From the IMG/VR virus record IMGVR_UViG_3300048015_000152, positions 1 through 33,138 of that record: 33,138 nt of DNA; one strand, given 5' to 3'. This DNA is from a virus. A program made the translations under genes and the position numbers. Under the pieces are notes generated by a model. The model was given only the letters and a program-made list of their open reading frames with translations, had not been told where the DNA came from and searched no databases. This document shows positions 1 to 18,911 of this stretch, in pieces; within the stretch, counting starts at the first letter, position 1, and every line of letters starts with the position of its first letter.

Positions 1-1
1 C

Positions 2-217
2 GTGCAGCGCGAGGATGACAAGGTGACGAGCTTGTACGATCGCGCCATGCGCCTGCGGAATCGCGGCGCGGCGGCACCGCCCGCATCGACGCCCATCATG
101 GCCCCGCCGACCGGGCCGATGGCGGAAATTTTTCGCGGCGGCAGTATGGAGCCCGGCGGCGTCGGCATCGGCGATCAACCCGACTCCGAGGACACCGAGA
201 TCATGGAGGGCGCGTAA
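2..217 (+). CDS. Hypothetical phage protein, possibly 5'-truncated
   Basis: The reading frame opens at the window edge with a GTG at position 2, so the true start may lie outside. At least 71 residues are visible. The N-terminal part is charged (a LYDRAMRLRNRG helix-like stretch) and is followed by a low-complexity Pro/Ala/Met segment and a Gly-rich, then acidic tail. There are no domains I recognise. Its TAA stop shares a base with the ATG of the next gene (TAATG), so the two are probably cotranslated. Its position ahead of a possible small terminase suggests a head-gene operon, but the function is unknown. Confidence 0.5.
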   Translation: MQREDDKVTSLYDRAMRLRNRGAAAPPASTPIMAPPTGPMAEIFRGGSMEPGGVGIGDQPDSEDTEIMEGA

Positions 218-819
218 TGGCCGGGCGCCGCAAGAAGCCGTCCGACACGCCGCTGGACGAGACGCCGGTGCTGATGCTGCCCGCGCCACGCACGCACAAG
301 CACGGCGAGCGCGACAAGGACCCCTACGTTGCCCCTGCCGGCGCCGTGCCGGGCCGCGCGACGAACATGAAGATCGTGGGCTCGAAGCCGCTGGACCGCG
401 CGCTCACGGACAAAGAACGCGAGCAGCAGATCGCGCTGCAAGGCGAAATGGCGGCGAAGGCCGACCGATATCATCGGTGGCTGGAGGCGCTCATCATTAC
501 GGGCGGCGAGCGCGCGCAGGCGCTCGTCCACATGAAAGAGTGCGCGAGCATCGAGGAAGCCGAGGAGCGCGCCTACGTGCTCGAGATGGAGATTCGCCAG
601 GGGCAGACCGTCTCGGACATCGGCGACATTCTGATGCGCCACGACCTCACGGCCGAGATGCAGGTGATGAACATCAAGCGGTGGCTGCTCTCGGACAACG
701 CGGCAGCGTCGATCAACGCGCAAAAACTACTCCAAGAATTGGCGGGCGACTCGCATCAAGAGGGCTCGTTCGAGCAACTGATTCGCATCCACAACGCACG
801 AAAGCAGATGACGGCATGA
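217..819 (+). CDS. Hypothetical protein, possible small terminase subunit
   Basis: This 200-residue protein has a basic N-terminus (AGRRKKP), a disordered Pro-rich stretch to about residue 60, and a helical C-terminal two thirds. The end of the protein (WLLSDNAAASINAQKLL, then a short acidic segment and a final helix) resembles the C-terminal oligomerisation/clamp region of some phage small terminase subunits. I see no clear helix-turn-helix, so that label rests on this likeness and on the neighbourhood only. It begins at the ATG overlapping the preceding stop and ends overlapping the next start (ATGA at 816-819). An alternative is a generic head-operon protein. Confidence 0.4.
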   Translation: MAGRRKKPSDTPLDETPVLMLPAPRTHKHGERDKDPYVAPAGAVPGRATNMKIVGSKPLDRALTDKEREQQIALQGEMAAKADRYHRWLEALIITGGERAQALVHMKECASIEEAEERAYVLEMEIRQGQTVSDIGDILMRHDLTAEMQVMNIKRWLLSDNAAASINAQKLLQELAGDSHQEGSFEQLIRIHNARKQMTA

Positions 820-1355
820 GCCAACAAATCGGCCCCCCGGAGTTTCTCAAGGACAACACGATCCCGCTCGTTCGGCCGCGCGTGTTGGAAAAGTTCCACC
901 TGCTGCTGCACGATTTCGACCCGACCGAAATGCTGCCGATCGGCGACCGCTACATCGTGGAGACGATCCCGGTCGAGGAAACGGTCAAGTTCGGTTCGTT
1001 CGTCGTCGTGGCGAACGTCGGCGGCGATACGAACCCGCGCGACCCTTCGGGCAACCCGGCGGTGGAACGGCGCGGTGTGTTGCCGGCGGTTATCATCGCG
1101 GCGGGCAACGGGCATCTGCTCGGCTTGCCGGATCACAAGATCGTGGTGGACGGCAAGATTGTGCGCGAGCCCGCCGACGTGCCGATCTTCTTCACGCCCG
1201 GCGACGTCGTGCTCTTGGACATGAACGCGAAGGGGCGTTCGCTGATGATTGTGGACCGCGAGATTCGCGTGGTCAATCAGATGGATTGCCTCGTCAAACT
1301 GCCGCTTCGGTTGGAGTGGACGGAGCAAGGCTGGAAGCGCGAAGGTGTGGAGTGA
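816..1355 (+). CDS. GroES-like co-chaperonin (phage-encoded)
   Basis: The 179-residue product has the layout of a GroES-fold protein. There is an opening strand PIGDRYIVETIPVEET (about residues 41-56), a long insert, a strand pair around RRGVLPAVIIAAGNGH (85-100), and a closing PGDVVLLDM...REIRVVNQMDCLVKL (128-162) that corresponds to the GDxVL and final 'DILAVI' strands of GroES. It is larger than bacterial GroES (about 95 residues), as phage co-chaperonins often are, with N- and C-terminal extensions. The known role of such proteins is to partner the host GroEL in folding the capsid protein. The start is the ATG overlapping the previous TGA; a longer open frame upstream is a shadow. No GroEL gene is visible here. 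Confidence 0.6.
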   Translation: MSQQIGPPEFLKDNTIPLVRPRVLEKFHLLLHDFDPTEMLPIGDRYIVETIPVEETVKFGSFVVVANVGGDTNPRDPSGNPAVERRGVLPAVIIAAGNGHLLGLPDHKIVVDGKIVREPADVPIFFTPGDVVLLDMNAKGRSLMIVDREIRVVNQMDCLVKLPLRLEWTEQGWKREGVE

Positions 1356-1540
1356 GCGACGAACTTCGCATCGGGTCGAAGGACCGCGCGATCGTGCTTG
1401 TGCTGAAACCGAAGATCGGCGACTTCCGCTCAACGACCAAGACGCAGGTCATCGGCGCTGACGGTTCGTTCTCCGACGAAGCGAAGCGCGCCATCGCCAC
1501 GTTGTACGACTGGCTCGAATCCGCGAAGGCGAAGGCGTAA
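1352..1540 (+). CDS. Small hypothetical protein
   Basis: The 62-residue product starts at a GTG interlocked with the stop of the GroES-like gene (GTGA). It has a compact alpha/beta look: a basic strand (RAIVLVLKPKIGDF), an ADGSFSDEAKRAIATLYDWLES helix region, and a Lys/Ala tail. I do not recognise the family. Translational coupling to the upstream gene is the main support for it being real. The next gene begins 28 bases after its TAA, one of the few true gaps in this block. Confidence 0.45.
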   Translation: MSDELRIGSKDRAIVLVLKPKIGDFRSTTKTQVIGADGSFSDEAKRAIATLYDWLESAKAKA

Positions 1541-1568
1541 CATCAAGCAGTCCGACATTGACGCGCTG

Positions 1569-2555
1569 ATGGAGCCGCGCCTGCCCGAAGGCCCCGACGT
1601 CATCATTACGACCGGCGACCTTCTCGGGCTGGGCGATCACGGTGCGTTCTCGACGCTTCCCGAGCGGTTCGCAAAACTTTGCTGGAAGTGTAAGCACGAG
1701 CATCGACGGGATAGTTCGTTCGGGCAGTACGATCGCGATCACGCGCTTTGCGGTAGTTGTAGGTGTGACCATTCTGAGCCGTACAACGTCTACATCGACG
1801 CCGATACGCGCGCGTCCAACCCGGAAATCCTCGAACTGATTTGGGAGAAGAACCCGTACGTCAAAGGACTCTCCGACAAGAAGCCCAACGCGGGGTACGG
1901 GTTTTCCGGCATCCTGCAAGGCAAAGCGTACGAGCTAACCAACACGCTTGGCGGTCATCGCGGCATTGAGTGCGTCGAGCGCGCCAACGGCCTGCCGCCG
2001 CCGTACAGCATGGCGCCGAAGATCTACTACACGCCGAAGCCCCCGCCCATCGACGTGCGCGAAACCGTCATCGTGGACTACTCGGCCGTCTCGACGAAGT
2101 ACGGTCGCGGCGACATCGAAGAAGAAATCAAGATGATGATCGGGCGCTTCCGTGGCGCACCGATGCTGCAACTGCTGCACCCATCGTGGGTCGTGCTCAA
2201 CCAAGAGCAGTGGGTGCCGTCCGTGTATCGCTGTGGGTCCATCTTCGAGTACATGGATTTTCTGCACGCCTGTCGCGCGTGGGTCGGTAGCGAGGCCGGC
2301 GGCCAGATGCTTGCGGCGGCGGTGCGTGGCGAGCATGACGTGTACGACGACGCCGCGCGTCCCGAAATCGTGTGCAAGATCACGCCCGCCACTTTCAACA
2401 GCGGGATGTATCGTTGGAGGGGTGTAGACTACCGCGTTACTGCTAACGGAAACGGCGGGGGGTACTGGTCGCCATCTGAGGTGAAAAACTATCAGTACCA
2501 CATCGCTTGTAAGATTCGCGAGTTCAAGATGGCCGAGGAGTTAGCGCATGGCTGA
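1569..2555 (+). CDS. Heptosyltransferase-like (GT9/GT-B type) glycosyltransferase with Cys cluster
   Basis: This 328-residue protein reads like an ADP-heptose:LPS heptosyltransferase. There is a TTGDLLGLGD opening loop, an ENPYV-like segment (IWEKNPYVKG, 91-100), a mid-domain strand VIVDYSAVSTKYGRGD (167-182), and a C-terminal GSEAGGQMLAAAVRG (240-254) that matches the nucleotide-sugar site where such enzymes have 'D/SGG..H.AaA.g'. An unusual insert holds Cys38, Cys41, Cys61, Cys64 and Cys66, a likely zinc knuckle not found in standard members. The first ATG is taken as the start, although in-frame codons continue back to 1542 with no better start. It leads the glycan cassette and overlaps the next gene by 8 bases. 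The exact sugar donor is not predictable. Confidence 0.55.
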   Translation: MEPRLPEGPDVIITTGDLLGLGDHGAFSTLPERFAKLCWKCKHEHRRDSSFGQYDRDHALCGSCRCDHSEPYNVYIDADTRASNPEILELIWEKNPYVKGLSDKKPNAGYGFSGILQGKAYELTNTLGGHRGIECVERANGLPPPYSMAPKIYYTPKPPPIDVRETVIVDYSAVSTKYGRGDIEEEIKMMIGRFRGAPMLQLLHPSWVVLNQEQWVPSVYRCGSIFEYMDFLHACRAWVGSEAGGQMLAAAVRGEHDVYDDAARPEIVCKITPATFNSGMYRWRGVDYRVTANGNGGGYWSPSEVKNYQYHIACKIREFKMAEELAHG

Positions 2556-3321
2556 CGATCGCCGCGTGCTAATCGTGTCGTCAATCCCGCCGAAGCGCGC
2601 GGACGTGCAAGGTCCGCATTGGAGCGATCTGACCGATTCAACCTGGTCCGTGATGAAGAAGTATTGCGATAAGTGGGGCTATGCGTTTCACGGTGATGTG
2701 AGCGACGTGTATCTGCCTATCGCATCGCCCGAACTGTTCCGCTCGTTGACGGTGGCGCAAGCGCCGATTCGCTACATGGTGAAGTTCAAACTCATGCAGC
2801 ACTTTCTCACGCCCGAGAACTGCGGCGAGACGTTCGATTACGTCGCTTGGGTCGATGCGGATTGCTTGGTGACGAACTTCGACTTGCCGATCACGAAATG
2901 GTGCAGTAACGGGCGCGCATCGACCGGCGACGACGCGCCGCTTATTGGCGACCTGCTGTTGTGTTGGGATCAAAACTCGCTGCATCCGACCGTCATCATC
3001 GCGCGAGCGACCACGCTGATGCGCGGGCTGATGTGGGAACTCGCCGGCATCGGCTGGCGGCTCTTCGGCACGCAAGAGTGGGTGGACAACTTCGCGCTGC
3101 GCTTCGCCATTTCGACGCCGCCGTATCAGCAAGCCGTGTGGTGGGCGTCCGCGAAGGACGTGTGCGCGCAGCATCCGGGCTTGTACCCGATGCCGAAGGA
3201 CGTGGCGGCGATGTGCGAGTGGACGCCCGAATCGTGGAGTTTGCATCTGTCCGCTCTGCCGATCGCGCACCGGATCAAGCTCGCGCGAGAATACATCGAC
3301 CGGCTCGGGTTGTTGTCGTGA
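2548..3321 (+). CDS. DxD glycosyltransferase, GT34-like (first of three)
   Basis: The 257-residue product shows the core of galactosyl/mannosyl transferases of the GMA12/MNN10 (GT34) type. An N-terminal strand (RRVLIVSSIPP) is followed by a segment describing a tagged residue at YCDKWGYAF. Then comes the metal-binding motif YVAWVDADCLVTN with D103-A-D105, and a C-terminal WSLHLSALPIAHRIKL that matches the conserved H-containing end of the family. The ATG lies inside the last codons of the preceding gene, and the stop overlaps the next start (GTGA). With its two paralogues downstream it probably adds successive sugars to one glycan. Acceptor and donor are unknown. It looks cytoplasmic, with no signal peptide or membrane segment. 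Confidence 0.6.
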   Translation: MADDRRVLIVSSIPPKRADVQGPHWSDLTDSTWSVMKKYCDKWGYAFHGDVSDVYLPIASPELFRSLTVAQAPIRYMVKFKLMQHFLTPENCGETFDYVAWVDADCLVTNFDLPITKWCSNGRASTGDDAPLIGDLLLCWDQNSLHPTVIIARATTLMRGLMWELAGIGWRLFGTQEWVDNFALRFAISTPPYQQAVWWASAKDVCAQHPGLYPMPKDVAAMCEWTPESWSLHLSALPIAHRIKLAREYIDRLGLLS

Positions 3322-3974
3322 AGGTTGCGATTGTGTCCGCTGGCTCGCCGGACTACGCGGACCTTGCTGCAGTAACGCAACCGTCACGCAACGCCTACGC
3401 GCAAAAGCACGGCTACCATTCGTGGTATTTTGAGGTAGACAAGAAGCGCGGTGACGCCTGCAAGCGCGATGCGTACGAAGCGTTGTGGGGTCGCGGCTAC
3501 GACGTTATGGTTTGGATGGACCTCGATAGCGTCGTGATGAACAGCGCCATGCGCGTCGAAGACATTTGCCGCGATTGGAACCTTGCCGACGACTTCACGG
3601 ATAGGCCGTATCACTTCCTCTGGGGCTACGATCACGGCGGCCCAAATAGCGGCGTCTACATCGTGCGGTTCACGGACGAAGGTCGGCATTGGATGGACCG
3701 CGCCTACGCGACGATGCTGGAAAACGGGCTCGCTGACGAAACCGCGATGGAGATTCTTGCGACGACGTACCCGTTCAAGGATTACGTCGTTGCGTGCCCT
3801 GGTGTTGTGCTCAACAGTTACGACTACCGATACTATGGCTGGGACCGCTACTCGCTGGAGTATCAGCGCAAGATGAACCTGTACGAACCAGGGCGGTGGA
3901 TTCTTCACATGCCTGGTTACCCGAATGAAGTACGCATCCCTGAACTGAAGCGACGACTCGCGGAGGCGACGTGA
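3318..3974 (+). CDS. DxD glycosyltransferase, GT34-like (second of three)
   Basis: This 218-residue product starts at a GTG interlocked with the previous TGA. Motifs are VAIVSAGSPDY at the N-terminus, YAQKHGYHSWYFEVD (27-41), the DxD motif VWMDLDSVVMN with D68-L-D70, a GGPNSGVYIVR loop, and a C-terminal WILHMPGYPNEVRI. The order matches the gene before it and the N-terminal half of the fusion protein after it, so the three are likely paralogues. The open frame extends far upstream of 3318, but that part is a shadow of the preceding gene. It is expected to transfer a hexose from a nucleotide sugar with a divalent metal; the specificity cannot be read. Confidence 0.6.
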   Translation: MKVAIVSAGSPDYADLAAVTQPSRNAYAQKHGYHSWYFEVDKKRGDACKRDAYEALWGRGYDVMVWMDLDSVVMNSAMRVEDICRDWNLADDFTDRPYHFLWGYDHGGPNSGVYIVRFTDEGRHWMDRAYATMLENGLADETAMEILATTYPFKDYVVACPGVVLNSYDYRYYGWDRYSLEYQRKMNLYEPGRWILHMPGYPNEVRIPELKRRLAEAT

Positions 3975-4249
3975 CGCCCGCTGAGACATCCGCGCTTCTC
4001 CACGCCGTGAAGCAATCGCATTGGGATCCGGTGATTGGCGTGCAAATGTTCCATCGTCGCCACCCGGACGTGCCGCTGATGCCAGAGGTCTACGGCCTGG
4101 CGATCTGCGTCGGTAGGACTCCATTTCCAAACATCGTCGGCCTCCCCGAAGGGCCGTTCCCCGAAGATAAGTCGCGCCCGTGGCTGGATTCTAGAATGTG
4201 GAATCGCGCTGAACAAGCCGAATGGGAAGCCGAGATGGAGAAGCTATGA
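3971..4249 (+). CDS. Small hypothetical protein in glycan cassette
   Basis: The 92-residue product begins at a GTG interlocked with the preceding stop (GTGA) and ends interlocked with the next start (ATGA). It is rich in Trp, Pro and His (HWDPVIGVQMFHRRHPD, LPEGPFPEDKSRPWLD) and ends in an acidic helix. There are no membrane segments or known motifs. Being sandwiched between two glycosyltransferases with coupled translation suggests an accessory role in that cassette, but this is inference only. Confidence 0.45.
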   Translation: MTPAETSALLHAVKQSHWDPVIGVQMFHRRHPDVPLMPEVYGLAICVGRTPFPNIVGLPEGPFPEDKSRPWLDSRMWNRAEQAEWEAEMEKL

Positions 4250-5787
4250 CTGAGACGCAAATGGTCTACCCGAAAACGCGCGCGGAGTGGTTCATCTCGG
4301 GCACCGGCCTCGTTCGGAAGAACATCGTCAACTGGGACCCGAAAGGCGACCTGCCGATTCCCGGCGTCAAGGTTTGCGTTATCGGCATGTACGATGAAGC
4401 GTACGATCCGATCGCCGCGATTGCGGAGCCGAATTGGGCTGCGTATTGCGCGAAGCACGGGTACGCGCTACGCACGTACCCCGGTTCGTTCCACACCGAT
4501 CCCTCTCGGCCCGAAACGTACGGCGATAAGGTGCGCTTCTCGCTCTACTACGATGTGCGGGGCCTGTTCGATGTGGTGATGCTCCTCGACATCGACAGCC
4601 TGTTTGTGAACATGGATACGGCGATTCCGTTCGGCGAGTACGAGCATTTTCTGTGGACGTGGGCTGAGGGCGGTCCTATGTCGGGACTGATGATCGCGCG
4701 TACGGATGACAAGACGGAGCGTCATCTGCGCTACGCCTACGAACTCGCGGCGCGCGAGAACAACGTGCGCCACGGCGTGATTGAGCCGAACGGGATCTCC
4801 GACCAAGACGCAATGACCCGCTTAATGAACGTGCCTCCGTGGGACGCGACATTTGGCGGAAGTTGCGTTCAGGCCGAACGCATCGGCTTTTGCTACCCGG
4901 AGGACGCAGACAACAAGCCGTGGATCGTGACGTGTCGCGGTGGCAGCGTCGACGAGAAGCTCGCGACCATGCGTTCGTTGAGCAACGATGCGGTCCCAGC
5001 GCACGCGCCCACCCATGCTGTTGCGTCCTACGATCCACGCGCATCGTTTGATCGGAATTGGGTCGGACCCGCAGACATGAAGCCGCGCGTGTACCGCACG
5101 CAGTCTGAGAAGGATACGTGGTACGCCGTTGCCGTGGAGAACGAATACGACGTGCCCGACACCTTCGGGGCCGACGACGTGGTGGTGGACATCGGCGCGC
5201 ACATCGGGTCGTTCTGCTATCGCGCGTATCGTGCGGGATCACGCAGCATCTACGGCTTTGAGATTGACCCGTGGCACATGGAGGCCGCTGTGGCGAACCT
5301 GGTCGATCTGCGGGATGGTGTGGGGTTGTACCATAAGGCCGTCGTGCGCGGTGATGCCCATCGCGCTGCCACGTATCACTACGACGGGGCGTGGAACTCG
5401 TTCGGCCAACTCGGGCCGGAAGTCTCGTCTACTTCGCTCGACGAACTACTGGACGAGATTGGAGAGCCCGTGCGGTTTCTCAAGATTGATTGCGAGGGCG
5501 GCGAGTATCCGATTCTGTATACCTGCACGAAACTGGACCGCATCACCGAGATTGCCGGCGAGTATCACAACCTGGATGCGTCACCGCCCGAACTGCGGAA
5601 TCTGCCGTATGCGACGAATGGCGAGGCGCTTGGCGCGTTCTTGCGCGAGCAGGGCTTCCGCGTCATCGTGAAGCCGAGCAACGACACCACGGGCAACTTC
5701 CATGCGCTGCGCTCGAAAGTGCAGAGTGGTCCCCCTTTCGCGCAAGACGACCCGGGCGCAGGCGTCTTCTACGCTAAACTGTCGTGA
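4246..5787 (+). CDS. Bifunctional glycosyltransferase (DxD) - FkbM methyltransferase fusion
   Basis: The 513-residue protein joins two enzymes. Residues about 38-240 form a GT34-like glycosyltransferase: VKVCVIGMYDEAYD, YCAKHGYALRTYPG (67-80), VMLLDIDSLFVN with D115-I-D117, and GGPMSGLMIAR (142-152). Residues about 290-513 are an FkbM-type SAM methyltransferase: VVVDIGAHIGSFCYR (motif I, 312-326), IYGFEIDP (335-342) and the hallmark FLKIDCEGGEY (411-421). A single chain could add a sugar and then O-methylate it. The ATG at 4246 interlocks with the previous TGA; a start eight codons earlier is possible but would lose this coupling. Its stop interlocks with the next gene (GTGA). Confidence 0.7.
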   Translation: MTETQMVYPKTRAEWFISGTGLVRKNIVNWDPKGDLPIPGVKVCVIGMYDEAYDPIAAIAEPNWAAYCAKHGYALRTYPGSFHTDPSRPETYGDKVRFSLYYDVRGLFDVVMLLDIDSLFVNMDTAIPFGEYEHFLWTWAEGGPMSGLMIARTDDKTERHLRYAYELAARENNVRHGVIEPNGISDQDAMTRLMNVPPWDATFGGSCVQAERIGFCYPEDADNKPWIVTCRGGSVDEKLATMRSLSNDAVPAHAPTHAVASYDPRASFDRNWVGPADMKPRVYRTQSEKDTWYAVAVENEYDVPDTFGADDVVVDIGAHIGSFCYRAYRAGSRSIYGFEIDPWHMEAAVANLVDLRDGVGLYHKAVVRGDAHRAATYHYDGAWNSFGQLGPEVSSTSLDELLDEIGEPVRFLKIDCEGGEYPILYTCTKLDRITEIAGEYHNLDASPPELRNLPYATNGEALGAFLREQGFRVIVKPSNDTTGNFHALRSKVQSGPPFAQDDPGAGVFYAKLS

Positions 5788-6365
5788 GCCAGGGCGGCAC
5801 CTATTCGCAGTATGACGAGGATCGTTGGATTGCCGACCTCATCGCGGAGATGCCTGGCATCCCGCGCACGTTCGTGGAGATTGGCTGCGGAGACGGTAGC
5901 GAGAACAACACGCGATTGCTCTTGGATCGCGGGTGGGAGGGCTGTTGGTACGATGCAAGCCCGGAGAACATCAAAGCGGCGGTGAAAGTCAATCCGTGGT
6001 CCGAGTGCCAACGCGTGACGTGTGAGGATTTTCCGCGCCTTTCGTTTTCCGAGGGGATCGGCCTTCTCAGTATCGACGTAGACGGCAACGACTGGCACCT
6101 GTGGAAACGGTCACACGAACTCGGATGGCGTCCGTGGGTCGTCGTCATCGAAGCGCAAATACAGAAGCCGTTCGATGAGCCCTACGTCATGCCGTACAAC
6201 CCGGATTGGGTGTGGCCCGACGATCCGGCAACCGAGACGTACGATTGGGGCGCAAGCGTCTATTCGCTCATTGAACTCGGCAAGGCCATCGGATACACGT
6301 ACGTCGGCAAGCCGGAGAACCCGCATTGTCCGAATCTGTTCTTCGTGCGATCGGACCTCGCATGA
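5784..6365 (+). CDS. SAM-dependent methyltransferase, FkbM-related
   Basis: This 193-residue product has the FkbM-like opening SQYDEDRWIADLI, then motif I FVEIGCGDGSENNTRLLLD, an acidic motif II region (GCWYDASPENI), and a LLSIDVDGNDWHLW strand equivalent to the 'IDcEG' segment of FkbM enzymes. The C-terminal half (WVVVIEAQIQKPF, YTYVGKPENPHCPNLFFVR) is typical of small polysaccharide-cluster methyltransferases. GTG 5784 interlocks with the preceding TGA and the stop interlocks with the next ATG. The likely role is methylation of a sugar assembled by the upstream transferases. It is cytoplasmic, with no transmembrane part. Confidence 0.65.
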   Translation: MSQGGTYSQYDEDRWIADLIAEMPGIPRTFVEIGCGDGSENNTRLLLDRGWEGCWYDASPENIKAAVKVNPWSECQRVTCEDFPRLSFSEGIGLLSIDVDGNDWHLWKRSHELGWRPWVVVIEAQIQKPFDEPYVMPYNPDWVWPDDPATETYDWGASVYSLIELGKAIGYTYVGKPENPHCPNLFFVRSDLA

Positions 6366-6925
6366 GTACGCTCGTCTCGCATCTGCCAGAGATCCAAGAC
6401 ATCGTGATGCGGTACGGCATCCGCACGCTCATCGAGACGGGCGTCGGTGAGCCGAAGGGCTTCGCTTCCGGTGGCCTCGCTGTGGCGGAACTGCTCGGTC
6501 TGCGCGGATTGTCATGCGACATTGACGAGGGCAGCGTTGAGGCGGCGCGCACGCGCTTTCCCGAAGCGGTCGTGTATCACGGGACGAGCACGGCGTTCCT
6601 TGAGAAGATGCTGCCGCTCGCGCACGGGCCGTGCTTCGTCTGGCTAGACGCCCACTTCCCGGGCGATGCGAGCGTGCCGATGTGGCCCGTGTGGGACGAC
6701 TTGGCGCTGCTCCGGGGCTACGAGCGTCACGTCATCTGGTGCGACGATATGCAGCACGTCCGCGACCCGGAGAATCCGGCCTGCAAGGGCCAGCGGGTCG
6801 GCGTGGACGGTTGGCCCAGCGACACCGCGCACACGATTGCGGAGTACAAGGCGTGCCTAGCAGACACGCACGTCGCCGCGATCGTCGGTACGGTGCTTCG
6901 ATTCACCCCGAAAGATCGCGACTAG
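6362..6925 (+). CDS. Class I SAM methyltransferase-like protein, last gene of the glycan cassette
   Basis: The 187-residue product shows a glycine-rich SAM loop (LIETGVGEPKGFASGG), a motif II acid (GLSCDIDEGSVEAAR), and a strand ending FVWLDAHFPGD that resembles sugar and secondary-metabolite O-methyltransferases. ATG 6362 interlocks with the previous TGA; the upstream in-frame extension overlaps that gene and is not needed. Its TAG (6923-6925) interlocks with the stop of the reverse-strand terminase gene within the palindrome CTAG. Substrate unknown; context points to the same glycan. Confidence 0.55.
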   Translation: MSTLVSHLPEIQDIVMRYGIRTLIETGVGEPKGFASGGLAVAELLGLRGLSCDIDEGSVEAARTRFPEAVVYHGTSTAFLEKMLPLAHGPCFVWLDAHFPGDASVPMWPVWDDLALLRGYERHVIWCDDMQHVRDPENPACKGQRVGVDGWPSDTAHTIAEYKACLADTHVAAIVGTVLRFTPKDRD

Positions 6926-9900
6926 ATACGCGATAAGTCGGGCCGGTTGCGCGACGACGGCCCGCTATTCGCGAACCATTGCGACGACCACGATTCTTGC
7001 GGCTGCTTCGGCTTCTCGGTATCGGGACGGTGCAGCCCGGAGTACGGATCAAGCGCGATGCACCACGCAATCTCCAGCGCGTCGCAATGATCGTCATGCC
7101 CGTTCTTGGACTTGAACGCGCCTGACGGCTTGCGAATCAGCCCCTTGATTTCGGCGATCGTCTTGGCATCGGGGATGATACACAGCGGCTCGGCCTTGCC
7201 CGTCTGCGGGTTGCGGTGGCACACGTACTCCAAGAGGCGCTGATCCATCATCGCGCGCATGAACGGCTTGGCGGTTTCCCATCCGGGAAACTTGGTCGGC
7301 TCTGGGTTGTCCGCGTCGTACCGTTTGTAATAGTGCGTGTTGCCCATGCCCGCGTCGATGCAGCGACGAACGAGGTCGTAGCCCATGCCGGCCGTTTCAA
7401 TGGCGTAGTAGCAGTTGCCGTACCACTTGTAGAGGCAGAACAGTTGCCGCATCAGTTCGTGTGATCCGACCTTGGCAGTATACGTCGCGACGAGCTTGTT
7501 GTCGCTGAAGCGCACGACTTGGGCCACCGTGAAGTCGCTTTCCTCGTTCTCGTAGGCCACGTCCGTATCGACGCCCATCGTGTATTTCTCGCCCGGCTCC
7601 GGCGGCGCGTAGATGCGGATTTCTTGCCACGGGTTCGGGTCGCGATGCACGACCGAAATGGGCTCGCCGTGCATTTGCCAATGCGCGAATTTGCCTTCGC
7701 TCTCGAACAGGCCAACGGCGGCGGGCGTGCGGATCATGCGCGAGAGCGCGTCCATCGACTCGCGCGGAAACGGCGTCGTGCCCGTATCCACGAACGCGGA
7801 CTCCACCGTCGTGAGAAACTCTTGCCGGAACGCTAGCAGGCACGATTCTTCGCTCGGTAGTTCGTAGTTGTCGATCTGGCAGCGCCGCCAGAACAGCCGC
7901 TCGAGCGAGACGCCGTAGCGGTCGCGCTGCTCAATTTCCTCCTCGCCACCGTACTTGTTCATCTTGCCGAGCGTGGCGTTCATCTCGTCGCGCATCGCTT
8001 TGCTGAAGCGGGCAATCTGGCCGCGCGGGTGCGCTTTGTCGCGCACGGTGTTGTGAACGAGAATGCCGTTGGCTGCATATTGATGCACATCGGCAACTGA
8101 AATGTCGTATACGTTTGCGAAGCCAGCGTCCTCAACTGAGACGACTCTATCGTACTCGGACTCTACTGCGCGCGCGCTAACGCGCCGCTCGCCGCGCCGG
8201 GATTTCGTTGGGTCGGCGCGCCATGATTTTCGCTTTGAAACAAAGCCAATCTCAGCAAGGAACGTTTCTGACTGTTGTGCCCGCAGGTACATTTTCCAGC
8301 CCTTGTGGCGCTTGCCGCGAATCGTTCGGTCGTTGCTATAGATTCTCGCCCGAACGCCAAAACCCAAAAGCAACAACTGGACCTGCCGCAAAAACTCAAC
8401 ATTCTTGGCGTAGTATTCGACGGACGTCGCGCGCGTGTTGCGGTACCCATCGCCCTCGAATAGCCCGCGCAGAAACTCGCGAACAACTGGCTTTGGTGAG
8501 CGAAATATCGCGTTTGGAACGCACGGCGTGCGGCGTTGTATTTCGGGATCAAATCCACCGAGTTCGGTGAAGAACTCCTTGAAGGCCAGGCGACCGGAAC
8601 GCACCACGGTACATGCGGATGCGCCGTGTTTGATTGGTTTGATCGGAACCTTGCCCGCTGACCCACGCGACGGAAACCGCTCCGTAAACGCTGTGACCAA
8701 CGACTTCACATCGTCAACCACGTCTTCGTCCTGAGCGTCGCAAGCGAACGAAAGTTCGCCGTATCTGTCAAGGCACCCATCGGCCATGTAGTAGCCGAGT
8801 AGTCGCCCCATCTCGTTGGTGATGCTGATGCCGCCGACTTCTTGATAGTCAGCGCCGAATTGGTGGCCGACGAGTTGCACGTCTTTGCCGAGCGTATTGT
8901 CGGCAACGATCCATCCGTCTGGCGTCCAGAACGGGTGCGTCGGCGTGCATACGATTGAGCGTCCCTGCTCCGTGGTGACGCGAACAACTTGGCGGTTCTC
9001 GAACTTGAACGTGTCGGTTACGCGCCCGTAGGTCGTCTCATCTCCGACGACGATCGTCTCGATCGGTTTTAAACCGTCCTTACATGCGACAAGCATCCCC
9101 TCAATTATACAGTATTCTTCGTGATATCGCCACGGGCAGAGCGCCGGAACCATCACGCCCGGGCGGCCCTTCTCAACGCAATCCGGGATGCCGAACAAAC
9201 CGTTGAGCACGTCCTCGGCGCTCGGCTCGCCGATGTAATTTTCGATGCGCTTGATCCACTTCGGGTTCTGTTCGCACGCCTTGAGGACCATCGAATGATA
9301 TGAGTCGCCCGGGCCGTTCGGCGTCGTGTCGATGATGAGGATGGCGTACGGGTTGTTGCCGAGCGCCGAAATGAGGCCCATGTTCACGGCTTCTTGGCGC
9401 GTCTCGTCCATGTGGGCGTACTCGCCGATCGACACGAAGATCGCACCGCCGACGCCGCGGAACGACGACGGGACCGTGACCTGCGAAGCCGAGTTGAGCC
9501 CAGGGTTTGCTACGCGGTCCTTGGGATCTGGATTTTCAAAGACGAGCGATTTTAGGCTTTGGATGCGCCTCATGGGTTGCATCCATTTTGGCAATCCGTT
9601 CAACATCACGTTGAAGTCGGTGGCTTGTGCCGCAGCGACATCCTCGTCATCGACGAGGATGAACGCACGCTTGTTCTCGTCTAAAATAAAATGCAGCCCG
9701 CGCGCAAGGCACTCCGTTGTCCATCCAAGCTGGCGGGCTTTGATTTCTACAAGTCGTCCGGGTAGGCCAGCGCGTAATTGCGAATCAAGCGCAACGCGAT
9801 GAATCGCTTGGCCGACGAAGGGCCGCAGCAGTTTTGTGTTTCCCGCCTTGTCGCGGATGTAGCAGAAGTTCGACGCGAACCAGGTGTACGAGTTCCGCAT

Positions 9901-10035
9901 GTGGCTCGTCATGGCGAGGCGCACAACGTTCCGGTTCGCGTCGGGAATGTGGTCCCCGTATTTCGCGGTGAGCCAAGCGTTTTGATCAACGAGTTCGTCT
10001 TGGCTATAGAGCGATTTCACGTACGATCGTTCCAA
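6922..10035 (-). CDS. terL: Terminase large subunit (TerL) interrupted by an intein
   Basis: The 1037-residue precursor is the DNA-packaging motor plus an intein. In the mature 683-residue extein the ATPase has a Walker A variant KARQLGWTT (residues 99-107), a Walker B strand FVSIGEYAHM with catalytic E205, and coupling motif DTTPNG (236-241). The nuclease domain has GVDTD (D823, D825), YAIETAG (E880) and HDDHCDALEIA (D981, D982, D985). The intein (309-662) splits Tyr308 from Thr663. The frame upstream is closed by a TAG at 10159-10161, and TTG 10035 is the only usual start before Met42. The gene is opposite in strand to the portal and all other head genes. There are only 17 bases to a possible divergent gene and no obvious promoter. 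Confidence 0.93.
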   Translation of the reverse strand: MERSYVKSLYSQDELVDQNAWLTAKYGDHIPDANRNVVRLAMTSHMRNSYTWFASNFCYIRDKAGNTKLLRPFVGQAIHRVALDSQLRAGLPGRLVEIKARQLGWTTECLARGLHFILDENKRAFILVDDEDVAAAQATDFNVMLNGLPKWMQPMRRIQSLKSLVFENPDPKDRVANPGLNSASQVTVPSSFRGVGGAIFVSIGEYAHMDETRQEAVNMGLISALGNNPYAILIIDTTPNGPGDSYHSMVLKACEQNPKWIKRIENYIGEPSAEDVLNGLFGIPDCVEKGRPGVMVPALCPWRYHEEYCIIEGMLVACKDGLKPIETIVVGDETTYGRVTDTFKFENRQVVRVTTEQGRSIVCTPTHPFWTPDGWIVADNTLGKDVQLVGHQFGADYQEVGGISITNEMGRLLGYYMADGCLDRYGELSFACDAQDEDVVDDVKSLVTAFTERFPSRGSAGKVPIKPIKHGASACTVVRSGRLAFKEFFTELGGFDPEIQRRTPCVPNAIFRSPKPVVREFLRGLFEGDGYRNTRATSVEYYAKNVEFLRQVQLLLLGFGVRARIYSNDRTIRGKRHKGWKMYLRAQQSETFLAEIGFVSKRKSWRADPTKSRRGERRVSARAVESEYDRVVSVEDAGFANVYDISVADVHQYAANGILVHNTVRDKAHPRGQIARFSKAMRDEMNATLGKMNKYGGEEEIEQRDRYGVSLERLFWRRCQIDNYELPSEESCLLAFRQEFLTTVESAFVDTGTTPFPRESMDALSRMIRTPAAVGLFESEGKFAHWQMHGEPISVVHRDPNPWQEIRIYAPPEPGEKYTMGVDTDVAYENEESDFTVAQVVRFSDNKLVATYTAKVGSHELMRQLFCLYKWYGNCYYAIETAGMGYDLVRRCIDAGMGNTHYYKRYDADNPEPTKFPGWETAKPFMRAMMDQRLLEYVCHRNPQTGKAEPLCIIPDAKTIAEIKGLIRKPSGAFKSKNGHDDHCDALEIAWCIALDPYSGLHRPDTEKPKQPQESWSSQWFANSGPSSRNRPDLSRI
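8050..9111 (-). other. Intein with LAGLIDADG homing endonuclease inside TerL
   Basis: Residues 309-662 of the TerL precursor form a full-size 354-residue intein. The N-terminal block starts at Cys309 (CIIEGMLVACKDG...IVVGDE), block B has CTPTHPFW (T364-x-x-H367), and the C-terminal blocks are NVYDISVADVHQYAANGILVHN with His661-Asn662, followed by Thr663 as the +1 nucleophile. Between them lies a two-motif LAGLIDADG endonuclease: LLGYYMADG (412-420) and FLRGLFEGDG (521-530). The DNA is visibly less GC-rich and uses different codons from the flanking extein, which fits separate acquisition. All splicing residues look intact, so protein splicing should be active. The acidic residues of both endonuclease motifs are present, so homing may be active too. 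Confidence 0.9.
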
Positions 10036-10052
10036 ACCCGTCTGGCTTGTGT

Positions 10053-10169
10053 ATGTGCGGATGCGGCCAACGCACGAAAATATCGAAATACACCTACGAC
10101 ACGGCGGAAGAAGCCGACGCGGCGGCGCGGGAGTGGCGTCTTGCGAACATGCCAGGAGCTACTGGATAG
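10053..10169 (+). CDS. Small Cys-containing hypothetical protein
   Basis: ATG 10053 opens a 38-residue frame beginning MCGCGQR and continuing with a Tyr/Asp turn and an acidic-to-basic helix (DTAEEADAAAREWR). Short proteins starting MCGCG occur in phage head operons, and the helix composition looks coded. It starts 17 bases from the divergent TerL start and overlaps the next possible small frame. Short length makes this a tentative call. Confidence 0.35.
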   Translation: MCGCGQRTKISKYTYDTAEEADAAAREWRLANMPGATG

Positions 10170-10233
10170 GCTTTTCAAGCAGGGGGACTTTCTGCCCGCC
10201 GCGACGTATTTCCGCCACCGTGCGCCTCCTTGA
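10141..10233 (+). CDS. Possible small protein between TerL and the portal operon
   Basis: A TTG at 10141 opens a 30-residue frame (…ELLDRLFKQGDFLPAA…) that reads like a short amphipathic helix followed by an aromatic/basic tail. It overlaps the previous small frame by 29 bases and the next gene by 14. A GGAG lies before neither start convincingly. It is listed because the overlap pattern matches the rest of the genome; it may be spurious. Confidence 0.22.
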   Translation: MRTCQELLDRLFKQGDFLPAATYFRHRAPP

Positions 10234-11002
10234 CGCGATCCGCAAAGCCGTTGATCCCCGAGGCCCTCTTGGCGAGGTTCTGTCGCCATCGGAAGTGTTC
10301 AAGGATCGGCTCGGGCTGCCGATCGCGGCCCCGCATACCGCCCGCGCCGTCTTGGCGGCATCGAAGGAACAGGTCGAACACGCCCTCGCCGCTCCGCGCT
10401 TCGCGAGCCTGGACGAGTCCGCGCCGCCGAATCGCGTGCGTCAGGTGAGCGCGTACGTTGAGGAGCATTGGTCGCCCGTCTACGCCAAGACGGACAGCAC
10501 GGACCTTGCGACGATCCTCGTCACCTCGCAGCAGCAAATCGGGTGGACCGTCACGCAGCGCGAGTCCGAGCAATCGCGCCTCGCGCGCCGCGCGCAGCAG
10601 AACGCCGAGGAGTTTGCCGAGGTCCTTCAGTCGATGCAGATTCAAGCGTCGGACGAGTTCTACGTCGGCTACTACGAGACGATCCCAGGCAACGACCCGG
10701 TGATCCTTGACGGCGAGATTCTGCGCGGCGAAGCGACGTACGACGAGAACGGCAAGATGACGCATGACGGCATCGTGCGCGGCGGAACGTACATTCGCGG
10801 GCGCAAGCATTACAACGCCGCGACGAAAGGCTTCATTACTTGGGATAAGGGCGCGTGGGCGGAACACGAACGCGCGCAGGCCGAGTACGCTTCGCGGGGC
10901 GTTCGCAACGTGCGCCGCGCGCTCGAAGATTGTCAAAATGCATTGCCCCTCTGGCGCCCGGTTGGCATAAATTTTCGCAGAGATAGACGGAGCGCGGTAT
11001 AA
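10220..11002 (+). CDS. Hypothetical phage protein preceding the portal gene
   Basis: The 260-residue product starts best at GTG 10220; the frame is open further upstream but that stretch overlaps other candidates and reads poorly. The protein is mainly helical in the first 170 residues (QQIGWTVTQRESEQSRLARRAQQNAEEF looks like a charged coiled coil). It then has a more beta-like part with GYYETIPGNDPVILDGEILRG and VRGGTYIRGRKHY, and a short Arg-rich tail. No family is recognised. Position just before the portal suggests a head or packaging role. Its TAA overlaps the -10 of a candidate portal promoter. Confidence 0.55.
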   Translation: MRLLDAIRKAVDPRGPLGEVLSPSEVFKDRLGLPIAAPHTARAVLAASKEQVEHALAAPRFASLDESAPPNRVRQVSAYVEEHWSPVYAKTDSTDLATILVTSQQQIGWTVTQRESEQSRLARRAQQNAEEFAEVLQSMQIQASDEFYVGYYETIPGNDPVILDGEILRGEATYDENGKMTHDGIVRGGTYIRGRKHYNAATKGFITWDKGAWAEHERAQAEYASRGVRNVRRALEDCQNALPLWRPVGINFRRDRRSAV

Positions 11003-11003
11003 T
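10974..11003 (+). promoter_or_regulatory. Candidate sigma70-type promoter for the portal operon
   Basis: A perfect TATAAT lies at 10998-11003, 18 bases after TTCGCA (10974-10979), which matches TTGACA at four of six positions. It sits at the end of the preceding gene and 42 bases before the portal GTG. The local DNA is the most AT-rich of the neighbourhood (CATAAATTTTCGCAG), which supports a promoter. Confidence 0.4.
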
Positions 11004-11015
11004 TAGGTGAGGTTC

Positions 11016-11048
11016 ATGCCGTATTCGGAAGCCGATAAAGTGTCGTGA
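11016..11048 (+). CDS. Ten-residue leader mini-ORF coupled to the portal gene
   Basis: ATG 11016 opens MPYSEADKVS and a TGA at 11046-11048 that interlocks with the portal GTG (GTGA). A purine-rich GGTGAGG lies just before it. The portal gene itself has no good ribosome binding site, so translation of this mini-ORF could deliver ribosomes to the portal start. Too short to judge by composition. Confidence 0.25.
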   Translation: MPYSEADKVS

Positions 11049-13138
11049 GTAACGCGATATTCGGCAGTTCGTATAACGAGGCTGGAGGGCGCGGCGGTTG
11101 GCTCGGCGGTCAGCCCGAGGACCTGTCATCGCAACGGCGGCAACGTGAGACAACGAAACAAACGCCGTTGCTCAAGTGGACACAAAACGTTGAGGCAACG
11201 CTGAAGCGCGAGCGGCAACAAGTGACCGAGCAGATGAAGAACAACACGGCGATGGCGCAGGGCGAAACGCCGTGGTGGCGCGGTCGCCCGAAGTGGAAAG
11301 TGCGTGCGCGGTTCAATAGCTGCGCGACCGTGCCGTTGACGTGGACCGCCATTCTGTGCGATGCGAAGCCGTCCGTGACGTATCAGGCGCTGGACCGCAA
11401 AAAGCAGCGTCGTGCGGACATCGCGACGGCCGCGTGGGAGCAGGCGTACGAGGACGGCAACTGGGAGGAGTGCATCCACGCGGCTGTGCTTATCTCGCAG
11501 GTGCAGAAGAAAGCGTATCTGTCGCTGCGCCCGCGGCTGAAGGGCGATCAAGTCATTCCGCATCTGGTCGTGTTTTTGGGCGAGCAGGTGTACGTCGATT
11601 CCAACGCACGGCGGCTAGAAGATGCCGAGATTCGCATGGTGGAGTATCGCGAATCGTACGGCTCGCTTTGTGCGCGATTCGATGGCCTGGAGAAGAAACT
11701 TCAGCGCAAGTATTTCTCCAACCGCACGGAGATCGGCAACAACAGCCAACTCGCACCGCCCGCGACGTACTCGTTCTCCGGGCTCTCACCGGGCGGCAAC
11801 AGCCCCGGCGTGACGACGCCGGCGTACGCCGGAACGCCCAATCCGCCGGATGGTGCGTCGGGTTCCGCGGGCATGAAGGTCGTGGAGTTCTGGACGACAC
11901 CGCACAAGACAATCGACATTGACGAGGTGCAGTTCCTCACCTCGGGCGAGCCTGCCACGCGGCCCAAAATGTACGAAACGATCAACCCGGACGACGAGGA
12001 GCCGCTGCGCCGCATCGTCACGGAAGCCGGGATCATCTACGAGATTCCCGAGTCGCTCGTACGAAAACTACACGACGCCGAGGACAACGGCGGCATCCGC
12101 ATACTCTCGGATCGGCCGGCGCTCGAAGCGATCACGCACAAGGTCCGCTACCCGCTCTATCCCGATGGCCGTCTTGTCGTCAAGGTAGACGACGACATCA
12201 TCGCCGACGACCGCATGAATCCCCTGGGCTATATTCCGCTCGTCGAGATTTCCGCCAACGCCGACCCCGGCGGCGGCTACTACGGGCCATCGTCGGTGGA
12301 TCTGATTGCGGATGCCTACGAGTTAAAGATTCGCACGATTTCCGGCATCGGCGACAACGTGAATCTGATGGGCAACAACGGTTGGCGCGTGTGGGAAGGC
12401 GAGCCGACGCCGAACGACGACTTCACCAACGCGCCGGGGTTCATCACGCGCGAGACGATCAACTCGCTGCGCTACTCGAAGCGTGAAGAAGCGCCCGACC
12501 TGCCGAGCTACATCATGAAGACGCTCGAGTATTACGATGCGCAGATCAAGGACCTGAGCGGCCTTTCGGACATGGTGACGGGCAAGATGCCGCCGCGGAT
12601 GCAAGTGTCCACCGAGACGATGACCAATCAGCAGGAGGCGTCGGGCGTGCGCTTCCGCGATTCGCTGGCGTTCGTGTCGCGCGGCATGAAGACGCTCGGT
12701 TCGCATTTCCTTGAGTTTGCGGCGCGGTTCTACACCGCACCCGTGATCGTGCAGATCAAGAACAACGCCGGGGTGACGGAGCCCGTGCCGATGCTCGGCG
12801 CGTACATCACGGACCCGTTCATCGTCGAGGCCAAGGCGGGGTCGAAGCAGCCGTCCGGGCCGAGCGCGCGGCTGCAAACGCTCATGTCGATGGCGGCGGC
12901 CGGGATTCCGGTGGCGACCGAGATGATCTACGACCTCATGGAGCAACTCGGGTCGCTGCCGTCCGCGACCCAGGCGATGCGGCAACTCGAGCAACTCATC
13001 GCCGACGCGCAGCGCGACCCGCGGCAGGCGTGGAAGGTAAAGGGCTATCAGCCCCCCGGACAGCCGGGCGCGAACAAGCCGCAGGCGAAGAAGCCGGGCA
13101 GTCGCGCGAGTCGCAAGCAGGGTGCCCAGGCGTCGTGA
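11045..13138 (+). CDS. Portal protein (podovirus-type)
   Basis: The 697-residue protein has the length and plan of a podovirus-type portal. The N-terminal region has a WWRGRPKWKVRARFN stretch, a wing/stem region with long helices (MKTLEYYDAQIKDLSG), and the conserved segment SGLSDMVTGKMPPRMQVSTE (about 500-520) typical of portals that dock DNA. The C-terminus is a long helical, Gln-rich 'crown/barrel' and a Lys-rich disordered tail. It should form the dodecameric ring at the capsid vertex. GTG 11045 is preceded by a coupled mini-ORF, and its stop interlocks with the next gene (GTGA). Identification rests on these motifs and on operon position next to the scaffold and capsid genes. Confidence 0.85.
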   Translation: MSNAIFGSSYNEAGGRGGWLGGQPEDLSSQRRQRETTKQTPLLKWTQNVEATLKRERQQVTEQMKNNTAMAQGETPWWRGRPKWKVRARFNSCATVPLTWTAILCDAKPSVTYQALDRKKQRRADIATAAWEQAYEDGNWEECIHAAVLISQVQKKAYLSLRPRLKGDQVIPHLVVFLGEQVYVDSNARRLEDAEIRMVEYRESYGSLCARFDGLEKKLQRKYFSNRTEIGNNSQLAPPATYSFSGLSPGGNSPGVTTPAYAGTPNPPDGASGSAGMKVVEFWTTPHKTIDIDEVQFLTSGEPATRPKMYETINPDDEEPLRRIVTEAGIIYEIPESLVRKLHDAEDNGGIRILSDRPALEAITHKVRYPLYPDGRLVVKVDDDIIADDRMNPLGYIPLVEISANADPGGGYYGPSSVDLIADAYELKIRTISGIGDNVNLMGNNGWRVWEGEPTPNDDFTNAPGFITRETINSLRYSKREEAPDLPSYIMKTLEYYDAQIKDLSGLSDMVTGKMPPRMQVSTETMTNQQEASGVRFRDSLAFVSRGMKTLGSHFLEFAARFYTAPVIVQIKNNAGVTEPVPMLGAYITDPFIVEAKAGSKQPSGPSARLQTLMSMAAAGIPVATEMIYDLMEQLGSLPSATQAMRQLEQLIADAQRDPRQAWKVKGYQPPGQPGANKPQAKKPGSRASRKQGAQAS

Positions 13139-17381: not shown

Positions 17382-17389
17382 AAATAATG
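17382..17389. repeat. Left target-site duplication of the transposon
   Basis: AAATAATG directly abuts the left terminal inverted repeat and is identical to the eight bases after the right end. Eight-base duplications are characteristic of IS1595-family insertions. Confidence 0.93.
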
Positions 17390-17407
17390 GGCTATTATAT
17401 ACTTGAC
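17390..17407 (+). repeat. Left terminal inverted repeat
   Basis: GGCTATTATATACTTGAC reads inward. Its last bases TTGAC form the -35 box of an inward-facing promoter candidate. Confidence 0.95.
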
Positions 17408-17432
17408 GAAAGTAGGGCCAATGTCAGATAAT
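17403..17432 (+). promoter_or_regulatory. Inward promoter arising from the left repeat
   Basis: TTGACG (17403-17408, five of six) and GATAAT (17427-17432, five of six) are spaced by 18 bases. The -35 is inside the terminal repeat. It would transcribe toward the 47-residue protein gene. Confidence 0.4.
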
Positions 17433-17493
17433 TCGACCGACAGGGCGGTGCCGATCGCGGCCGATAAGGCCGCGTCGTGCTATGCTTTAGGGG

Positions 17494-17637
17494 ATGCCGA
17501 AGGAGCCTTTGAAGCCCCTAATCCCGCTGGACGAACTGAAGAAGGTCGTCCAAGGGTTGGTGCGCGTTTCGAAGGACGAGATCGACAAGGCAGAGGCCAA
17601 TCGGCCGAAGCGGCGGAGCCCGAAGAAGCCCGCCTAA
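17494..17637 (+). CDS. Small basic passenger protein of the transposon
   Basis: ATG 17494 opens a 47-residue frame (MPKEPLKPLIPLDELKKVVQ, then a helix VSKDEIDKAEA and a basic tail RPKRRSPKKPA). TATGCT sits at 17481-17486, seven bases before the ATG, the spacing of a leaderless mRNA. The pattern (helix then Lys/Arg tail, very short) recalls small conserved proteins found in several bacterial phyla, but I cannot name it. Its TAA interlocks with the stop of the convergent gene (CTAA at 17634-17637). A longer overlapping forward frame through here is a shadow of the reverse gene. Confidence 0.5.
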   Translation: MPKEPLKPLIPLDELKKVVQGLVRVSKDEIDKAEANRPKRRSPKKPA

Positions 17638-18464
17638 AGAGCCTTAAATCTCTCCACGACCTTGGCGACGTAATCGCACGTGGCATCTACATAGCCGAGC
17701 GGTATTACGATACCGCGAGGCTCTTGAGCGAACGCCGGTGTTCCGAAATATACTTCCACGGTAACATGGCCTTGGAGGTACACGTTCGACGGAAAGGGGG
17801 CCGCATAACGGATGCGGCCGACTTCATGTTCCGCTTGTACTTCCCAACGCGGCGCCACTTGATTACGGACTTCCTCGACGATGCCTTCGCTTGGGGAGAT
17901 CTGAAGCACGCTTTCTTGCAAGAACGGCAGATTGTCGGCAATGATGCGATGCTTGTCGGCATTGGAGAACCGATGCACGACGTAGAGGGGATCTCCACGC
18001 GGGTCTTTCTTTCGGTGGAACGGTTGCACGTCCCAAATATCTTGGAGGCCGATAGTGACTCCGTGCAATGGCCCCTGACGACCCTTTATTCCTGGGATAG
18101 CAACGAGGTTGTTTCCGACACGGTTTTCGTAACCGACCTTAGTACTAAAAACCGGAAATTGGTGGCTGTTCGTAAGAGCCGCATTGCTAGCACCGACGAG
18201 CGCGGTAACGATATAGTCCAAGGCGCAACGCAAGTTGTGCATCACATCGCCGAAGAGAATGCCGAGCGTGTATTCACGAGGATAGTCGATGCGGGTCAAG
18301 TGGATGACGTACCACCCGCTATCTGGATCGACCTGACTAATGCGGCTTCCCCACGGATTGCGCTCTGCGACAACGCGATCGACTTCAGCCTGCAAGGCTT
18401 TCGCGTGTTCGCGCGCCCTTGCGATCTTTGCGTCTGATGCTGACAGATCGAGGCTCAGGGACAT
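17634..18464 (-). CDS. Conserved hypothetical passenger protein
   Basis: The 276-residue product starts with a helical N-terminus (KIARAREHAKALQAEVDRVV) followed by a beta-rich segment. The signature LRCALDYIVTAL (in GDVMHNLRCALDYIV) comes next, and later FSNADKHRI. This pairing ('HnLR.aLDh.v..L' then 'l.n.DKHR') marks a family of bacterial proteins of unknown function common in chromosomes. No catalytic motif or membrane segment is visible. It lies inside the transposon, convergent with the 47-residue gene, so it appears to be captured chromosomal cargo. A different forward-strand reading of this region lacks any such motifs. Confidence 0.7.
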   Translation of the reverse strand: MSLSLDLSASDAKIARAREHAKALQAEVDRVVAERNPWGSRISQVDPDSGWYVIHLTRIDYPREYTLGILFGDVMHNLRCALDYIVTALVGASNAALTNSHQFPVFSTKVGYENRVGNNLVAIPGIKGRQGPLHGVTIGLQDIWDVQPFHRKKDPRGDPLYVVHRFSNADKHRIIADNLPFLQESVLQISPSEGIVEEVRNQVAPRWEVQAEHEVGRIRYAAPFPSNVYLQGHVTVEVYFGTPAFAQEPRGIVIPLGYVDATCDYVAKVVERFKAL

Positions 18465-18700: not shown

Positions 18701-18703
18701 CCT

Positions 18704-18777: not shown

Positions 18778-18788
18778 CACCCAAGGAT

Positions 18789-18824: not shown

Positions 18825-18911
18825 GGGACGTCGGCCGTTGGACGGCCGTTATGACCGACCCTTCGCGCTGGCCACCTCAATTCCCCTCGTTTCGCCTCGA
18901 AGCGCTGTGCT

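Follow-up and report, generated by a model that had tools for sequence, protein, structure and literature searches.

The DNA considered here is an entire uncultured-virus record, IMGVR_UViG_3300048015_000152, of 33,138 bases, called the window in what follows. Between positions 1569 and 6925 its plus strand carries seven open genes, here called the cassette, which overlap at all six joints (by 8, 4, 4, 4, 4 and 4 nt). By profile or fold they appear to encode one GT9-fold enzyme, three GT34-like glycosyltransferases (GTs) with a DxD motif, one small protein without assigned function and two further methyltransferases. The third of the GT34-like enzymes is fused to an FkbM methyltransferase. The cassette is compared below with that of a divergent relative, L053 (IMGVR_UViG_3300027439_000001, 53.9 kb), which was found with an alignment of the last cassette protein, g7, and its cyanophage homologue. 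The genes are, with SAM for S-adenosylmethionine and aa for amino acids:

g1, 1569 to 2555, plus strand: GT-B/GT9 (heptosyltransferase-like) glycosyltransferase by predicted fold, 328 aa
g2, 2548 to 3321, plus strand: GT34-like DxD glycosyltransferase (WVDADCLV), 257 aa; related to g3 of L053
g3, 3318 to 3974, plus strand: GT34-like DxD glycosyltransferase (WMDLDSVV), 218 aa, GTG start
g4, 3971 to 4249, plus strand: conserved protein without assigned function, 92 aa, GTG start; motif PFPxIxGxxEGPFPxxxxRPxxDxR
g5, 4246 to 5787, plus strand: fusion of a GT34-like enzyme and an FkbM SAM-methyltransferase, 513 aa, ATG start
g6, 5784 to 6365, plus strand: class I SAM-dependent methyltransferase-like protein, 193 aa, GTG start; motif I FVEIGCGDG
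g7, 6362 to 6925, plus strand: protein with a predicted class I SAM-dependent methyltransferase fold, 187 aa, ATG start

The original prediction had placed seven genes of these classes at these positions, with overlaps at nearly every joint; genes, positions and classes stand, g6 being the weakest case, and every joint overlaps. The preferred starts of g3 (GTG, 3318), g5 (ATG, 4246) and g7 (ATG, 6362) each give a stop/start overlap. For g5, position 4246 was preferred over the listed 4222 because it yields an ATGA overlap. Overlaps of 1–4 nt are, however, also common among the other late genes of the same phage, so that tight packing alone is no mark of a special cassette or pathway. Scans of positions 1–11100 for promoters and terminators stayed at chance level and speak neither for nor against co-transcription. 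All cassette proteins lack transmembrane segments (best 19-residue hydropathy ≤1.28), and no GtrA/GtrB-like or flippase component was found among them by that measure or by family matches. The pair that defines seroconversion of the gtr type, a membrane flippase GtrA and a bactoprenol glucosyltransferase GtrB, is thus absent from the cassette. Genes of nucleotide-sugar synthesis are likewise absent (0 of the seven).

Fold prediction was run for g1 and g7, the least certain members. The AlphaFold2 model of g1, built from 20 relatives, reached a mean predicted local distance difference test score (pLDDT) of 79; a cysteine insert and a C-terminal stretch were modelled poorly. Its Foldseek matches in the PDB were TibC, a Veillonella GT9 (3tov), WaaF and WaaC, with E values from 7e-6 to 7e-4 and probabilities of 0.99–1.00. 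TibC was the best solved structure (E=7e-6, TM score about 0.5), with WaaC and WaaF close behind. Among the viral-library matches are proteins of phages annotated as GT9, RfaF and Aah/TibC, and also one BFVD phage protein named FkbM. An N-terminal GLGD motif, with the Gly-Asp expected of GT9 enzymes, is invariant across the 20 g1 sequences. By its modelled fold g1 is a heptosyltransferase-like GT9 enzyme, with heptose as the putative donor. Pfam gave no match to PF01075 or another family at a threshold of E 0.1, and g1 is filed as a GT9-fold protein, not as a member of the Pfam GT9 family. Searches of PDB sequences with g1, g5 and g7 returned chance-level matches only.

TibC is a protein O-heptosyltransferase with a conserved iron finger in its C-lobe, made of Cys-339, 342, 358 and 370 (PMC4358343). 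The GT9 fold is what g1 shares with TibC and the other autotransporter heptosyltransferases of the GT9 superfamily (BAHT, TibC/Aah). The N-terminal beta-barrel of the latter is missing from g1, whose model begins directly in the GT fold. At about residues 39–67 (window 1680–1770) g1 carries a CxxC-x19-CxxC insertion that resembles a metal knuckle. With its CxxC pairs at residues 39–65, it was considered as a counterpart of the iron finger and rejected: it belongs to the N-lobe, and among the sequences compared it occurs in the window alone, with neither L053 nor any of the 18 further relatives sharing it.

The GT34-like class of g2, g3 and the N-terminal part of g5 (g5-N) draws on motifs and on their relatives. 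All three stay below the Pfam cut-off for PF05637 (g3 with 15.4 versus 23 bits, E 0.016), whereas in L053 both the g3 orthologue (33 bits, 6.9e-8) and an extra GT paralogue (64 bits, 1.7e-17) pass it. Each of the eight GT34-like homologues aligned has the DxD motif and, further along, an Asp that never varies. In g5 the GT34-like domain covers about residues 40–256 (LLDIDSLF) and the FkbM domain about residues 288–490; g3 is a paralogue of the former (35% identity; 34% over the GT domain). Near the C-terminus, g2 and g3 keep the His of the metal-ligand motif L-H-x-x-G; g5-N and its L053 partner have Thr instead, and this GT domain may therefore be unusual. A fusion of GT34 with FkbM was not seen elsewhere in the searches run, although FkbM fused to other domains is known in phages.

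The C-terminus of g5 passes the cut-offs for FkbM in PF05050 (1.1e-11, 45.6 versus 22.7 bits) and in TIGR01444 (3e-14, 53.7 versus 37.7). It shows SAM motif I as VVDIGAHIG and the KIDxEGxE motif as LKIDCEGGE. Profile and motifs together identify it as an FkbM methyltransferase. The assignment of g6 is the weakest among the enzymes: PF13489 was matched with E=4.7e-5, under the Pfam gathering cut-off, and its relatives overlap FkbM-profile matches. For g7 there was no family match, and the weak PDB sequence matches of its profile were all methyltransferases. Its AlphaFold2 model (pLDDT 88.8, predicted TM score 0.88) gave Foldseek matches to PDB methyltransferases from E=1e-6. The best PDB matches listed were methyltransferases, including the sugar-modifying TylM1 and DesVI, or the related SAM enzyme AzeJ. 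By its predicted fold g7 is a class I SAM-dependent methyltransferase. Homologues of the small protein g4 lie at the equivalent place in L053 and next to a g7 homologue in a further contig, L054 (phmmer E=1.5e-5 and 4.6e-6).

In L053 the genes follow one another as o1, o2, o3, g1, g2, g3, g4, GT, FkbM, an extra GT34 gene, g7 and a degenerate second g7, where o1 to o3 belong to the upstream flank. The cassette proteins of the two phages are 35–58% identical; the values are 42% for g1, 41% for g2, 35% for g3, 54% for the GT domain and 39% for the FkbM domain of g5, and 48% for g7. The original prediction had named co-occurrence of at least the fusion and both further methyltransferases as support for one pathway, and L053 shows this only in part. 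It keeps g1 to g4, GT, FkbM and g7 in order, but the g5 fusion is represented by two overlapping genes, and g6 is missing, its position being taken by the extra GT34 gene. In the second g7-like gene (L053 8570–9097, after g7) the DAHF and DD residues conserved elsewhere are gone, which suggests an inactive paralogue. Behind the L053 cassette come an inverted terminase without intein, a gene called o10, the portal (59%) and the major capsid protein (71%). The terminase exteins of window and L053 are 51–57% identical. Most genes of the cassette are only a little further apart than these packaging genes, which is what joint inheritance of the two would produce.

A second relative, L003, comes from another sample and is 91–97% identical; its sequence begins within g7. 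Over the 122 codons compared, g7 shows 6 synonymous versus 2 non-synonymous changes, a small count, and a ratio of non-synonymous to synonymous rates (dN/dS) of 0.10, which indicates purifying selection between window and L003. Judged by these comparisons, the cassette is more than a chance assembly: the set recurs at the equivalent position in L053, and g7 is under purifying selection. In two more distant relatives whose terminases can still be recognised, Roseobacter phage CRP-7 and ctuNt529, the terminase adjoins the portal and there is no cassette, which marks the cassette as a feature of the lineage of window and L053. Portal and major capsid protein found no tblastn match in 50,697 phages, and the large terminase of L053 found remote matches only. 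By these searches the lineage is new, with no close relative among the 50,697 phage records.

The neighbourhood in which the cassette lies is conserved as well. Its main landmarks in the window are:

o2, 217 to 819, plus strand: 200 aa, no family match, 36% identical in L053; left border of the conserved neighbourhood
o3, 816 to 1355, plus strand: 179 aa, no family match, 42–47% identical in L053 (tblastn)
large terminase (TerL), 6922 to 10035, minus strand: with a LAGLIDADG intein (TerL residues 309–662)
portal, 11045 to 13138, plus strand: phrog_156 (4e-15), 59% identical in L053

Upstream of the cassette there are four small plus-strand genes without assigned function. One of them, o3 (816–1355), forms a conserved pair with L053 2098–2763, and its C-terminal 40 residues are faintly GroES-like; at an hhalign probability of 25% this is a lead only, and an assignment as GroES was not kept. 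At its other end the cassette runs 4 nt into the convergent terminase gene. Past the terminase follow a conserved protein without known function, the portal, the major head protein, an SU10-type adaptor, a Peptidase_S74 tail-fibre protein and a tyrosine integrase. To call the cassette built into a head operon, as had been proposed, is too strong. The terminase on the minus strand converges on it, and portal and capsid genes lie beyond. With the nearest head gene on the opposite strand, the cassette adjoins the packaging and head genes and is not embedded in their operon.

Between window and L003 the terminase intein differs by 4 changes in 354 codons (dS 0.004), whereas the flanking exteins show dS values of 0.59 and 0.86. 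A near-identical intein between diverged exteins, absent from the L053 terminase, clearly points to an intein that homed recently from one terminase into another, already diverged one.

Single-protein peptide scans of IMG/VR with g5, g3, g6 and g1 and two scans of GTDB, one with the fusion and one with the GT alignment, returned no relatives; such scans require exact short peptides, and their negatives mean no close relatives only. Two-member alignments, A4 and A5, retrieved 42 g1-like and 80 g7-like viral loci, respectively. In 20 distinct g1-like loci, 39 of 40 flanking genes lie on the same strand and 32 overlap. The neighbours of g1-like genes include epimerases, GDP-mannose dehydratases, GT2, GT11 and methyltransferases. 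Those of g7-like genes, as far as families were identified, include methyltransferases, FkbM, GT10, GT2 and GT9, besides unrelated phage genes. FkbM profiles match in 8 of the 42 and 24 of the 80 loci; GT34-like genes occur in six loci only, and the full set, among these loci, in L053 only. Homologues that occur singly and scattered would, by the original prediction, have spoken against one pathway, and this is half the case. Elsewhere the families stand apart, mostly in other phage sugar clusters, and they move widely and recombine; this particular line-up, though, has been kept in its own lineage.

Putting enzyme classes, overlapping run and the order kept in a divergent relative together, the idea of a coupled line for glycan building and methylation gains support, and the cassette is probably a real pathway. 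The likeliest reading, at about an even chance (roughly 0.5), is that virion proteins of the phage itself, be it capsid, tail or neck, receive a methyl-capped glycan from these enzymes. The seven genes would be co-expressed, presumably by co-transcription, as one set of soluble cytoplasmic enzymes. A first sugar would be placed by g1 or one of the GT34-like enzymes on a protein acceptor in the cytosol, and g2, g3 and g5-N would extend the chain with nucleotide sugars of the host. FkbM (g5-C), g6 and g7 would then O-methylate the sugars, and through the GT-FkbM fusion one round of extension would be tied to methylation. The virion so modified may be shielded from surface interactions or altered in them. 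Which sugars are used, in what sequence the enzymes act, what they act on and what the phage gains are all inferred.

What speaks for a virion acceptor? The set has soluble enzymes and no genes for a lipid carrier, a flippase or nucleotide sugars, and the acceptor should therefore be reachable in the cytosol. Virion proteins, the core of lipopolysaccharide (LPS) before its export and DNA are the candidates. Virion proteins are favoured because window and L053 both have the cassette close to terminase and portal, and because there is a precedent in Cluster O mycobacteriophages. We also count in favour that the nearest solved fold to g1 is a protein O-heptosyltransferase, TibC, and that membrane proteins and nucleotide-sugar genes are absent, unlike in the surface-sugar clusters of cyanophages.

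The precedent is phage Corndog, with an O-methyltransferase (gp35), two glycosyltransferases (gp36 and gp37) and an N-acetylglucosamine transferase (gp38). Its O-methyltransferase and three GTs lie between portal and protease, and unexpectedly few capsid peptides were recovered from it (PMC4351075). According to PMC11600133, which refers to Freeman 2023, capsid and tail tube are reported as the targets of the Cluster O enzymes. Window and L053 resemble Corndog in having GT and methyltransferase genes within or beside the head genes. A comparable set was thus already on record, and to call a line of this type unusual beside head genes was an overstatement. There are differences. Corndog has four genes and the cassette seven, which sit between upstream genes without assigned function and an inverted terminase. 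The cassette has three methyltransferase domains, relies on glycosyltransferases of the GT9- and GT34-like kinds, and includes the GT-FkbM fusion. No match to the Corndog genes surfaced in tblastn against phages, and no direct sequence comparison was made. The kind of system is known; new are the GT9-fold and GT34-like families, the GT34-FkbM fusion with its natural split counterpart, and the lineage. A narrower version, an autonomous decoration of the virion based on GT34-like enzymes in which the fusion sets chain length and methylation in one polypeptide and L053 does so with two proteins, strikes us as rather unlikely.

Several points weigh against a virion acceptor. Most g1 relatives sit in phage clusters that are read as host-surface sugar clusters and contain epimerases and dehydratases. 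A tyrosine integrase is present in the window, making lysogenic conversion possible. No enzyme bears a signature of protein glycosylation: g1 lacks the beta-barrel of TibC, and its cysteine insert is placed elsewhere and not conserved.

These points lead to the strongest rival, which we hold plausible but less likely, at about one chance in three: the same enzymes may extend and methylate the LPS core, or another envelope glycan on the cytosolic face, and so keep competing phages from adsorbing while the cell is infected or lysogenic. WaaC and WaaF, GT9 enzymes that match the fold of g1, make the inner core of LPS in the cytosol. Relatives of g1 occur in long co-directional, cyanophage-like sugar clusters with epimerases, GDP-mannose dehydratases and other GTs, and P-TIM68 carries its g1 homologue inside such a cluster. 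FkbM and GT genes flank the tail-fibre genes of Synechococcus phage DSL-LC02, and clusters with related genes in cyanophages and pelagiphages have been read as surface modification (PMC7029224; PMC9602691). The integrase of the window would fit as well, yet no homologue of it was found in the relative L053/G001. The cassette, moreover, stands in the packaging and head neighbourhood in both phages, not beside integrase or tail fibres, and the set includes no genes for nucleotide-sugar synthesis, a flippase or a membrane anchor.

A closer look at these clusters shows how far the likeness goes. Those of P-TIM68 (AIR93518–AIR93533) and Sf-CH8 are, like the cassette, overlapping runs, here long ones, of GTs and methyltransferases. 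AIR93524 is related to g1 (shared motifs GLGD...STLPE and NPY(V/I)KG) and SfCH8_152 to g7. Unlike the cassette, they contain epimerases, nucleotidyltransferases and phosphoheptose isomerase, and the cyanophage genomes that carry them are large. DSL-LC02 has a GT gene, then an FkbM multidomain protein and a small FkbM-annotated gene, with overlaps; here, however, FkbM is fused to radical SAM/SPASM instead of a GT, and the run adjoins or sits between tail fibres.

It is improbable that the cassette is a loose collection of individually acquired cargo genes with unrelated acceptors, held together through compact packing only. Overlaps are indeed common throughout the phage, L053 lacks g6, has an extra GT34 gene, a degenerate g7 copy and a split fusion, and none of the other g1 or g7 loci yielded a full set. 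Against this, seven of eight functional units keep their order at about 35–58% identity, near the 51–59% of terminase and portal, as expected of genes inherited together.

GT9, GT34 and FkbM are not known as families of DNA glucosylation. That the GTs decorate hydroxymethylated or otherwise modified bases of the phage DNA is very improbable. There are phage GTs known to hypermodify DNA with glycans (Pyle 2024, as cited in PMC12619734), but no thymidylate-synthase-like hydroxymethylase or other base-modification gene turned up where genes were scanned in the window or in the rest of the relative, whose genes there include Erf, RusA, a Cas4-like nuclease, a DNA methyltransferase and lysis genes; both records may be incomplete.

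Away from the cassette, the window holds an IS1595-family element of 2.78 kb (17390–20166) with terminal inverted repeats, flanked by a perfect 8-bp target duplication, AAATAATG, at 17382–17389 and 20167–20174. It is absent from L003. It carries:

17634 to 18464, minus strand: passenger open reading frame
18704 to 18778: tRNA-Asn
19168 to 20118, minus strand: transposase

At the right end of the record (32901–33138) a pentapeptide-repeat-like reading frame is encoded by 15-bp tandem repeats, and this repeat may be the reason why the contig stops there.

As for the wider meaning of a methyl-capped virion glycan, the seven-gene set, with one step that nature offers both fused and split, would be compact enough for reconstitution in E. 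coli. Reports of phage virions decorated with glycan plus methyl groups come so far from a few mycobacteriophage isolates. If such decoration is also true of an unrelated, podovirus-like lineage known from metagenomes, virion glycosylation would be broader than that and would have arisen with different enzyme families.

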